Positions 11,901 to 29,597 of a stretch of DNA of 37,391 nt are shown here, one piece after another. How positions within the stretch are numbered: position 1 is the first letter of the stretch; each line of letters starts with the position of its first letter. The stretch is from an uncultured Chitinophagales bacterium (GTDB lineage Bacteria > Bacteroidota > Bacteroidia > Chitinophagales > JAHDHT01), in NCBI GenBank assembly GCA_938023075.1, contig CALHDG010000020.1, positions 1 through 37,391 on the forward strand, given 5' to 3'. Under the pieces are notes generated by a model that saw nothing but the letters and a program-made list of their open reading frames with translations, did no database searches and was not told where the DNA came from. Made by a program: the position numbers and the translations under genes.

Positions 11901-12437
11901 GGCAGCTGGCATCGCAAATGTTACCGCATCACTGCCATCGCTACATAAAGTAGTTTGACCAGGATCCGTCAGACTTCCAATAGTTGATGGTGGAACACAA
12001 ACCCCATCATCTAATGGTGTACCAGGACAAAATTCGAAAGCTCCTCCGTCAACATATGCCTGAATTGTTGCAATATCTGCTGCGGACATAGTATTTCCGG
12101 TATTGTTATTCATCGCATTGCTTACTGTACCATTCGCACAAACCACTCCACCTACTTGTATAATATCTACCAAAGTAGCACCCGACTGTATTTCAGTACC
12201 ACATTTTGTGCCACCAGTATTAAAACCATTAAACGTGGTTAAATCTAAGCCACTGGCTGCACCACCATGGCAAGTAGCAGAGTTACATCCATTATTTTGA
12301 AATATAGTTGCAACATCACTCCATTGGTAAGAACCATCAGCACAAGAGCCCTGAGCATTAGCATTGATACAACAAAAAATTAGAGCAAACAATGTAGCTA
12401 CTAAAAAGTATGTTTTTTTCATGTTAATAAAATTCAT
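8973..12437 (-). CDS. Secreted CX4CH cytochrome-c-like, Cys-repeat protein with VPTL-type IPTL-CTERM anchor
   Basis: 1154 residues, paralogue of the gene at 4845-8762. The start may be ATG 12437 or ATG 12422 (MKKTYFLVATLFALIF), which sits directly before the signal peptide. C51-N-S-A-T-C56-H57 gives the CX4CH motif, followed by GNTMS as the candidate distal-ligand region. Ig-like regions follow and match the paralogue almost throughout. The repeat region is different: besides GCTD-type units it has a distinct unit, PDDGCDLTTD-FDAATC, repeated several times, and a GCLDPCDPNFDENATMDD variant. A carboxypeptidase-regulatory-like domain (GSVVVEETGCSPAGIEVTIYD) precedes VPTLSQWG, a hydrophobic helix and a basic tail. 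Surface location is inferred from the sorting signal; the function is not known. Confidence 0.9.
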   Translation of the reverse strand: MNFINMKKTYFLVATLFALIFCCINANAQGSCADGSYQWSDVATIFQNNGCNSATCHGGAASGLDLTTFNGFNTGGTKCGTEIQSGATLVDIIQVGGVVCANGTVSNAMNNNTGNTMSAADIATIQAYVDGGAFEFCPGTPLDDGVCVPPSTIGSLTDPGQTTLCSDGSDAVTFAMPAASLPDVQIVVEINGVISTISDDGSFDTSTLMDGDEVCYTAFTFDLAAINSLLTTASQLCPILDCDNTFGIPGVNQAIDDLVTGANDGMPGLNDLQEALDFAGSFGNPIGSVQSAGATLDALNAQIGGLLGNVCYATSAAVCLAVVECGPSTCPTVILNDANLPNLPPAVCAEDLLSLCFDVNVDEDTFDPTLIQFGYDLTIDGAPSTVVLNTIYNSGAAIDPNATGQLCFEATVPVGTDPCVPYELSLEIVEVFYNDPGCPNNFVAYDLNITNPAPIMQMGDDLNALIPLLGIAGLNPILVQIYPNPNWTATVTQAPACDGATLGIIEIYAADGTLCETLTDVGTAGMDACPPTDAILPETLYENNTTFTDANGMEQPNPCAVSITIPEQTVACEDQCIMCPAVVNVIPPNNICPDAGAVIFCVEFDMVVDANTVLTVEGVSVDGSAGGMQICVDIPFTAPFDPCNGVAIDYTATAICNGIDLLAGTTWLSTQILPITDPACGGIAGCMDATACNFNPMAVCDDPENPCISAPVCNTNPCIGDTEIVDPADPCQCIVDQPQVLGCTDVNACNYNMAANCDDATCDLGNTMCPDSCNPPNPDDGCDLTTDTFDAATCTVTNTPPDPDDACDLTTDVFDAATCTITNTPNCAAGETFDSVNCLCTTDPVPGCTNACADNYNPDATTDDGSCMFPNPDDGCDLTVDSYDDVNCVVINEAPNPDDGCDLTTDAFDAATCMITNTPSCAAGETFDAANCACIIGGTPGCLDPCDPNFDENATMDDPSLCAGYDTTCNTDCLMGDLTIWDASTCSCVVDVVTVLGCTDSTADNYDPAANCDDSTCTTGPCEDMITGSVVVEETGCSPAGIEVTIYDSTGAILGTATTDADGNYSLMGLYPCGNYTAELTANVPSCYSDSGGITGPIAFTVNGDGTADGVNFTENPQVPTLSQWGLIILALLMMSFGALRLTIRQLIYTESVN

Positions 12438-28355: not shown

Positions 28356-28802
28356 TTAAGCTATGGTAATACTTTTCTTTACGGCTTTCGCTTCTTCTTT
28401 TTTTGGTAATACAATACTTAAAATTCCATGGCTGTTGCTGGCAGAAATCAAACTGGCATCAACGGTTTCTGGTAACGTAAAGCTTCTTTTAAAGCTACTA
28501 AAGTTAAATTCTCTTCTGGTAAACTTTAAAGTTTCTTTGTTAGTGTCTGCTTCATTTTCTGTTGTTGCAACCTCTTTGCTAATGGTTAACAAATCATCAT
28601 TTACCTCAACATTAATTTCATCTTTAGCCACTCCTGGTACGGCTACTTCCACTACAAACTGATCTTCCTTTTCTACAATGTTAACAGGTGGTACAAACTT
28701 CGAGTTTGGTAAATCGTTCATTATTTTTGGTATATCTACATTAAAAATACCATCTAATAAACTGGCAAAATCATTTCTTGAATTTCTTTTTGTCATTCTC
28801 AT
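28356..28802 (-). CDS. Small heat-shock protein, Hsp20/alpha-crystallin family
   Basis: 148 residues. ATP-independent holdase chaperone in the cytoplasm. The alpha-crystallin domain (about 40-140) is recognised by PPVNIVEKEDQFVVEVAVPGVAKDEINVEVNDDLLTISKE, REFNFSSFKRSFTLPETVDASLISASNSHGILSIVLPKKEEA, and the C-terminal I-x-I motif ITI that docks between subunits. ATG 28802 or ATG 28796 could be used. Its promoter region has a sigma-54-like element and two upstream palindromes (separate entries), and a strong terminator follows, so it is a single-gene transcript. Confidence 0.95.
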   Translation of the reverse strand: MRMTKRNSRNDFASLLDGIFNVDIPKIMNDLPNSKFVPPVNIVEKEDQFVVEVAVPGVAKDEINVEVNDDLLTISKEVATTENEADTNKETLKFTRREFNFSSFKRSFTLPETVDASLISASNSHGILSIVLPKKEEAKAVKKSITIA

Positions 28803-28850
28803 ATTAATTATCGTTTTAAATTTTAAAATTTATTGTTTGATAAGCAATAG

Positions 28851-28867
28851 TTCAAATGTCGTTCCAA
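28851..28867 (-). promoter_or_regulatory. Sigma-54-like -24/-12 promoter of hsp20
   Basis: On the minus strand TTGGAACGACATTTGAA reads as TTGG at -24 and TTGA at -12, with GG-N10-GA spacing (consensus TGGCAC-N5-TTGCW). Transcription would begin near 28840, giving a leader of about 38-44 nt. Confidence 0.5.
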
Positions 28868-28920
28868 CGCAAAAAAAGCAACAGAAATGATAAAAAACCG
28901 GTCAAAATGAGAAAAATTTA

Positions 28921-28964
28921 TGACAATTTGTCAAAAATAAGTAAAATATAATGACAAAATGTCA
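28921..28964. promoter_or_regulatory. Pair of TGACA-N3-TGTCA palindromes upstream of hsp20
   Basis: TGACAATTTGTCA (28921-28933) and TGACAAAATGTCA (28952-28964) are spaced 31 bp centre to centre, about three helical turns. They lie roughly 80-125 bp upstream of the predicted hsp20 transcription start, where sigma-54 activator sites normally sit. The second overlaps the stop codon of the upstream secreted-protein gene. Confidence 0.55.
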
Positions 28965-29597
28965 CTGCAAAACAATCGAGCAAGGTTTTACAATATCGGC
29001 GGTAAAGTTGGTTAAAATTTTTACATGAAAGCCTTCATCTAAATGAATTTCATTATTAGCCAGGTAGCTAACATTTCCATCGGGCATATCTGCCGTAGAG
29101 GTGATTTTGTTAGAAGCCTGGTAGACATCTGAAATAACAATATTAGAATTTTGTTGTGTGTGAGTAATTGTACTTTGAGCACATTTAATTGGCGCATTGC
29201 AGTTAGCAAACAAAAACAAACTTTCTAAAATGGAAATTAAATTAGCCTCCATAGCAATAGAATTTTGCTGGGTATCGGTTATCGTAAAACCGATAGACCC
29301 AAATTGAAAATCACTTTCAGTAAAAAAATAAACAAAACCTTCACCGGCTCTCAAATTATTGGGTTCTACTGCTCCATTACCATTAAAAGTAACGTTGTAA
29401 ACACCGCTTCCACCGGTAACGTTTAAAATATTAATTTTTAAGCCTTTTTCTCCATTATAATAATCGCAACCCCAAACCAGTATGTTTTCATAAATTTCAT
29501 ACTCTACGTTTATAACATTTGTGTTGTTATTTGAATATAACAAATTTGTGAAAAATGAAATTACTATTAAGCATATAATCAGGTATGTACTATTCAT
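28962..29597 (-). CDS. Small secreted protein with 3-coathanger-stack-like C-terminus
   Basis: 211 residues with a signal peptide (MNSTYLIICLIVISFFTNLLYS). The N-terminal half has a beta-sandwich-like pattern (LKINILNVTGGSGVYNVTFNG). The C-terminal 60 residues, YQASNKITSTADMPDGNVSYLANNEIHLDEGFHVKILTNFTADIVKPC, follow the pattern of the '3-coathanger stack' domain found in many secreted Bacteroidota proteins. No T9SS or IPTL sorting signal is present. Function unknown. It is convergent with nothing and lies between the hsp20 promoter and the AlkB-like gene. Confidence 0.75.
   Translation of the reverse strand: MNSTYLIICLIVISFFTNLLYSNNNTNVINVEYEIYENILVWGCDYYNGEKGLKINILNVTGGSGVYNVTFNGNGAVEPNNLRAGEGFVYFFTESDFQFGSIGFTITDTQQNSIAMEANLISILESLFLFANCNAPIKCAQSTITHTQQNSNIVISDVYQASNKITSTADMPDGNVSYLANNEIHLDEGFHVKILTNFTADIVKPCSIVLQ

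Follow-up and report, generated by a model that had tools for sequence, protein, structure and literature searches.

A predicted enhancer-type sigma-54 promoter upstream of hsp20 in an uncultured Chitinophagales bacterium, and its counterparts before chaperone genes of Bacteroidia

Background

In E. coli, the sigma-54 promoter of glnA is preceded by an enhancer in which two sites for NtrC dimers are separated by about three helical turns. NtrC sites follow the pattern TGCACC-N5-GGTGCA, and the phosphorylated receiver of the protein is needed. PspF, another NtrC-type activator (bEBP) of E. coli, consists of an AAA+ domain and a Fis HTH without a receiver, and is a stress regulator. The hsp20 control region described here resembles the glnA enhancer in that a sigma-54 promoter is preceded by two sites with a spacing of three turns, but departs from the NtrC system in that the sites have the form TGNCA-N3-TGNCA and that the activator, most likely, has no receiver. 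The candidate activator, an orphan bEBP, is like PspF in combining AAA+ and Fis HTH with no receiver, and unlike it in its score against the pspF model (273.5, with a cut-off of 443.55), in a longer linker and in its neighbours (lptE, secG and often groES).

A link between sigma-54 and the chaperone genes of Bacteroidota is already known (PMC9723704 and PMC12316311, both as far as their accessible text goes). Specifically, the accessible text of PMC9723704 gives, for F. psychrophilum, mapped SM4 starts with a -24/-12 element before groES-groEL, dnaK, grpE-dnaJ, lon and htpG (cluster B254), and a mapped sigma-54 start also before clpB, which belongs to co-expression cluster B415. Three PF00158 proteins are proposed in that text as possible activators, none of them being assigned, and the main text contains neither 'palindrom' nor 'small heat' and describes no activator site. 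The accessible part of PMC12316311 reports that predicted sigma-54 promoters in Bacteroidota are enriched for GroEL, IbpA (COG0071), GroES, GrpE, DnaJ and DnaK, and cites other work for the sigma-54 dependence of grpE (in B. thetaiotaomicron and F. psychrophilum) and of groES (in B. thetaiotaomicron); its regulon predictions, as presented in that part, are based on the promoter element and include no chaperone-specific activator site or activator. In E. coli, the small heat-shock gene ibpB is transcribed by sigma-54 (PMC4370416, accessible part); there, sigma-54 works alongside sigma-32 control of ibpAB, whereas here a like element also stands at dnaK and groES.

Chaperone switching in Bacteroidota, which are common in guts, soils and seas, is poorly worked out, and in the literature searched, which was thin on subscription journals, no activator site, phasing or activator was found for a chaperone regulon of this phylum. 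A preliminary description of the present locus, made from its letters, had called heat-shock control in Bacteroidota poorly defined; sigma-54 at chaperone genes had in fact been published, and it is the activator that had been left open. The enhancer, its geometric rule and the candidate activator are taken to be the new part. They offer a binding site whose geometry follows a precise rule, and a single candidate for the activator left open by PMC9723704 (in its accessible text), and the TGNCA site may permit the regulon to be read from genome sequence.

The hsp20 control region

The window, i.e. the whole stretch of DNA analysed (37,391 nucleotides, contig CALHDG010000020.1 of assembly GCA_938023075.1, hereafter the source genome), contains the following features:

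28356..28802, minus strand: hsp20, the controlled gene, encoding a small heat-shock protein of the alpha-crystallin family, 148 aa (Pfam HSP20, E 2.5e-22)
28851..28867, minus strand: sigma-54 -24/-12 promoter element TTGGAACGACATTTGAA (GG-N10-GA), recognised from the sequence and from like elements at the hsp20, dnaK and groES genes of relatives
28921..28933, plus-strand letters: predicted proximal activator site TGACAATTTGTCA (TGACA-N3-TGTCA), centre 28927, 61 bp upstream of the TGG and helically phased to the promoter
28952..28964, plus-strand letters: predicted distal activator site TGACAAAATGTCA (TGACA-N3-TGTCA), centre 28958, 92 bp upstream of the TGG

The hsp20 product carries an Hsp20 alpha-crystallin domain, and the TGG of TTGGAACGACATTTGAA begins 64 bp ahead of its ATG. 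The GG-N10-GA element of the preliminary description is indeed found here on the minus strand; it keeps the GG-N10-G spacing, with A as the -12 base instead of the canonical C. If the GG is taken as -25/-24, transcription would start near 28840. The two TGACA-N3-TGTCA palindromes are likewise present, their centres 31 bp (three helical turns) apart. They had been placed about 80-125 bp upstream, which holds when counted from the predicted transcription start (centres at about -87 and -118) but not from the ATG (125 and 156 bp). The distal site overlaps the TGA stop (28962-28964) of an upstream ORF on the minus strand (28962-29597), which has a C-terminal GCX_COOH domain.

The window has two copies of TGACANNNTGTCA where 0.08 would be expected, and two copies were seen in 0 of 100 shuffles. 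Genome-wide (6.12 Mb) there are three copies, two of them being the hsp20 pair and the third lying within a repetitive ORF. The exact pair is found in one of 395 class genomes, namely the source genome, because relatives have the looser TGNCA-N3-TGNCA. The exact palindrome, nearly unique to the source genome, was dropped as a search key, the signal sitting in the looser form. Taken by itself, the promoter element does not reach significance in the window (0.68 matches expected with the fitted pattern, one mismatch allowed), and this is what would speak for a chance resemblance. The reality of the element follows, however, from its conservation among relatives and not from window statistics: it is present at hsp20 in 17 out of 19 families within the order, as well as in the named set described below, together with phased sites, and this conservation contradicts chance so clearly that the likelihood of such a resemblance is negligible. 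The sigma-54 element alone was also given up as a genome-wide key, since TGGYAY-N5-TTG has 398 matches in the source genome against 217 for the reversed pattern, too many for a regulon reading. TGG-type matches at window positions 12213 and 8553 were dropped as lying, apparently, within coding sequence.

The promoter element in relatives

The element was sought at 30 loci each of hsp20, groES, clpB/C and dnaK, nearly all of them from other families of the same order. In its strict form (TGG[CT]A[CT]-N6-TG, 140-15 bp ahead of the ATG) it is present at 28/30 dnaK, 22/30 groES and 18/30 hsp20 loci (the hsp20 set includes one locus, L030, taken from the wrong strand) and at 0/30 clpB loci, while other genes, serving as controls, have it in 9/333 and 9/535 cases. 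With a looser element the counts become 29/30 for dnaK, 29/30 for groES, 24/30 for hsp20 and 3/30 for clpB, against 24/333 for other genes; depending on the pattern, 5 to 12 of the 30 hsp20 loci are without the element. A second set consists of named hsp20 loci, mostly from Flavobacteriaceae with some from Pedobacter, Mucilaginibacter and Bacteroidales, and was reduced from 80 to 72 loci (L216 and L217 being omitted as copies, and six having no upstream ATG). The strict element is present in 63 of these 72, one locus with only 16 bases upstream (L270) being scored as a miss. At dnaK, A follows the last G in 23 of the 29 elements, where the textbook base is C; the GG-N10-GA of the window is therefore a common form here.

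Upstream sites and helical phasing

The conserved form of the upstream site is TGNCA-N3-TGNCA, of which frequently only single TGNCA half-sites are present. Palindromes of the type GNCANNNTGNC number 24 in 21 hsp20 promoters (0.32 in shuffles), 15 in 30 dnaK promoters (1.02 in shuffles) and 52 in 66 named hsp20 promoters (0.48 in shuffles). When one mismatch is allowed, their centres cluster near -19, -30, -40, -51, -61, -71, -82 and -92 from the TGG, with a period close to 10.45 bp. The exact hsp20 palindromes are phased to the TGG with R 0.96 (n=24), and the same value is obtained from one palindrome-bearing promoter per family (12 families, 19 sites).

Pooling 83 hsp20, dnaK and groES promoters gives 203 TGNCA half-sites, for which, at 10.45 bp, z is 84.8 relative to the TGG and 1.9 relative to the ATG; these z values assume independent sites, an assumption that related genomes violate and for which the family-wise and ATG controls make up in part. 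When the reference was shifted randomly by up to 5 bp per promoter, the maximum z in 1000 trials was 15.7, and in 53 control promoters, where the element is a chance match, the 37 half-sites were unphased (R 0.14). Other words are also phased in the pooled chaperone promoters: AANTT, the strongest among other 5-mers of the same build, reaches z 33.1, and phasing of this type perhaps comes from lying in or beside the sites; GCNGC is slightly phased (z 11.0). Among ten permuted palindromes tried, CNGANNNTCNG gets z 8.5 at 10.45 bp. The best period in the named hsp20 set is 10.7 bp (z 34.4, with z 27.6 at 10.45 bp), and the palindromes of this set show some phasing to the ATG as well (z 9.9) because the distance between promoter and ATG is itself conserved there.

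At hsp20 and groES of the source genome, all four half-sites of each gene lie within 1.4 bp of the phase common to the chaperone promoters. The groES region has TGGTACGGATTTGGA at -77, and its fit uses the farther TGG, the automatically picked nearer one having fitted worse; clpB of the same genome has phased half-sites with a looser element. The expectation that the motif recurs at other heat-shock genes was thus borne out in part: the element precedes the dnaK, groES and hsp20 genes of relatives, and phased half-sites accompany the other chaperone genes of the source genome just named, but among the heat-shock genes there the exact palindrome is confined to hsp20. Across relatives, clpB has a loose element in 15/30 loci, with weak phasing (z 4.0, 18 sites); the separate co-expression cluster of clpB in F. 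psychrophilum (PMC9723704, accessible text) suits this poor site.

Helical phasing to the -24 element fits an activator that is obliged to face the promoter-bound polymerase, and is hard to explain otherwise. Conservation and phasing thus support the suggestion, made in the preliminary description, that the palindrome may be the site of a heat-shock activator, though in the form TGNCA-N3-TGNCA.

Other types of heat-shock control

Symmetric sites near a promoter are typical of repressors, and the palindromes might be the operator of an HrcA- or HspR-like repressor with no connection to sigma-54. This is very improbable, given that the sites lie some 45-120 bp upstream of the predicted start in recurring arrays, that their helical phase goes with the -24 element and, for the pooled promoters, not with the ATG, and that CIRCE is absent: a search with the consensus, allowing up to 5 mismatches of 18, gave 0 matches in 191 readable upstream regions. 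The sigma-32 consensus is CTTGAAA-N11..16-CCCCAT. Its best match had 2 mismatches of 13 (in one clpB and one named hsp20 region), and the best at the hsp20 genes of relatives had 3. Both results agree with the initial impression from hsp20 that neither CIRCE nor a sigma-32 box is evident. The standard Bacteroidetes sigma-A promoter was found in 0/30 and 2/72 hsp20 regions.

Candidate activators

The source genome has one copy of rpoN (Sigma54_DBD, E 1.2e-52) and two strong NtrC-type bEBPs, its eight further PF00158 matches being weak. The first bEBP is of the receiver type, with NtrX as its best NCBIfam model at a score under the cut-off. The second is an orphan (L046:8370-9554), in which an AAA+ domain (PF00158, E 4.3e-64) and a C-terminal Fis HTH (HTH_8, E 2.9e-11) occur without a receiver. 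RpoN and an orphan NtrC-type activator, the two components for which the preliminary description had suggested checking, are both present, and most of the checks it proposed turned out to favour its reading. Against 25 listed NCBIfam models the orphan stays under all curated cut-offs (e.g. 314.9 of 558.6 for ntrC, and pspF as given above). At least two bEBPs are present in all 59 relatives searched.

The loop of the orphan reads GAFTGA in the source genome, and the 16 aligned sequences comprise 10 with GAFTGA, 5 with GSFTGA and 1 with GSFTNA. Its HTH motif GIS[ED]RTLYRK is nearly invariant among 16 orthologues, which fits a protein whose single target site is conserved. The structure model (mean pLDDT 63.8) has an ordered HTH, a disordered linker and, with low confidence (54-65), a helix at residues 260-288. 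This linker helix between AAA+ and HTH is conserved (consensus SEREILYK-LFDMK-D-NDLK) and could be an input site.

In the source genome, the orphan belongs to a cluster miaB-bEBP-lptE-X-secG (G000:C34), with two small ORFs after miaB. Three loci of relatives (L296, L297 and L299) have miaB-bEBP-(lptE-sized ORF)-X-secG followed directly by groES-groEL, and in five others (L298, L300-L303) the secG cluster is separated from groES-groEL by an ORF of about 240 aa on the opposite strand; gene labels in L296-L303 were given from sequence motif, size and place, not from family search. In at least 9 of 40 genomes the orphan precedes groES on the same strand, at a distance of 2.6-7.1 kb. The clustering with the envelope genes lptE and secG could mean that the system, though real, responds not to heat as such but to stress in the envelope or in protein folding generally. 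This appears somewhat unlikely, as the classical heat-shock genes dnaK, groES and hsp20 are its targets, and as the searches described above found no CIRCE, no sigma-32 box closer than 2 mismatches, and the sigma-A promoter at next to none of the hsp20 regions.

Both candidate clusters (L046 and L047) were inspected for autoregulation, and at neither was a phased site with a promoter found. The orphan cluster begins with miaB, and about 45 bp ahead of this gene there is one GNCANNNTGNC palindrome (L046:12459-12469); a sigma-54 element is absent there by the pattern used.

A search profile of the orphan, for which at most four candidates per genome were scored, matches at E<=1e-60 in 395 of 396 class genomes, a threshold that admits paralogues as well. 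The best match reaches E 1e-114 or better in 386 of the 396 (counted from the table). A close match is missing in 10/396 genomes, for most of which a relative from the genus or family does have one; a presence/absence test is only partly useful, because these absences are inseparable from assembly gaps. In G499, which has no bEBP match at all, the absence looks like an assembly gap, and that in G385 stays unexplained by one.

With the same promoter and enhancer, the TGNCA sites might instead be bound by the receiver-type (NtrX-like) bEBP, a histidine kinase supplying the signal. This protein is the other strong bEBP of the source genome and lies within 5.3 kb of clpB, on the same strand, in at least 8 of 40 genomes; moreover, among seven genomes without a close orphan match in which dnaK is readable, five keep the dnaK element, with 13/18 half-sites in phase. 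However, in 15 genomes of 10 families (five from one genus, six from one family) the orphan is the only bEBP matched, and the dnaK element is present in 13/15 of them, or 15/15 if CGG is allowed for TGG; taking one genome per family, 16/19 dnaK half-sites are in phase (R 0.71). For these comparisons HSP70 loci were searched in 27 genomes, with none from G453 and G484; 27 loci were found and 22 used, three having no N-terminus and two being second HSP70 copies. Furthermore, clpB, the neighbour of the receiver-type bEBP, has the weakest site, and the loop of this bEBP is G[AS]FTSA in 5/5 sequences, whereas the orphan has G at that place in 15/16, a difference that is only suggestive. Binding by the receiver-type bEBP is, on this evidence, quite unlikely.

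In several relatives (L311-L314), the NtrX-like receiver-type bEBP stands beside clpB with one or two opposite-strand genes between them. In a reduced genome of 0.5 Mb (G083, L323) there is one bEBP match, at the level of the orphan, and a clear sigma-54 element with a near-palindrome before dnaK; its sole TGNCA is 2.4 bp off phase.

Proposed mechanism and scope

RpoN, the orphan bEBP, the promoter element and the phased upstream sites, as well as the fact that several chaperone genes share this element and these sites, are all seen in the DNA, and from them the hsp20 region would probably be an enhancer-type sigma-54 promoter of a chaperone regulon, in which a bEBP acts on TGNCA-N3-TGNCA sites, the orphan of the miaB-bEBP-lptE-X-secG cluster being the most likely protein. 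RNA polymerase with RpoN would wait at GG-N10-GA as a closed complex; dimers of the bEBP would bind the two sites, on the helical face that the -24 element defines, and would then assemble an AAA+ ring (a hexamer) that opens the complex through ATP hydrolysis. As the orphan has no receiver, the stress signal, presumably heat, should enter via the N-terminus, the linker or a partner, and chaperone titration as that signal is a guess. The same element stands clearly before dnaK and groES and weakly before clpB.

Judged from sequence, the hsp20 region is one copy of an enhancer architecture common to chaperone genes across a bacterial class; the preliminary description is correct in its essentials and understates the extent. 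A wider proposal, for and against which the balance seems about even, is that in Bacteroidia, and perhaps in the whole phylum, the core heat-shock regulon (dnaK, groESL, hsp20 and part of clpB) depends on enhancer-dependent sigma-54 transcription governed by one dedicated bEBP without a receiver, which would recognise TGNCA arrays and itself be controlled by chaperones or secretion stress. If true, this would be a third general design, alongside heat-shock sigma factors and HrcA-type repressors.

Regarding gene content, the source assembly shows no intact dnaK, and only split HSP70-like stretches, one with an internal stop, lie at G000:C238:15871-19029. In two relatives hsp20 and groES are adjacent on the same strand (G029:C25:1949-2861 and G017:C34:281469-282277), and in both they probably form one operon.
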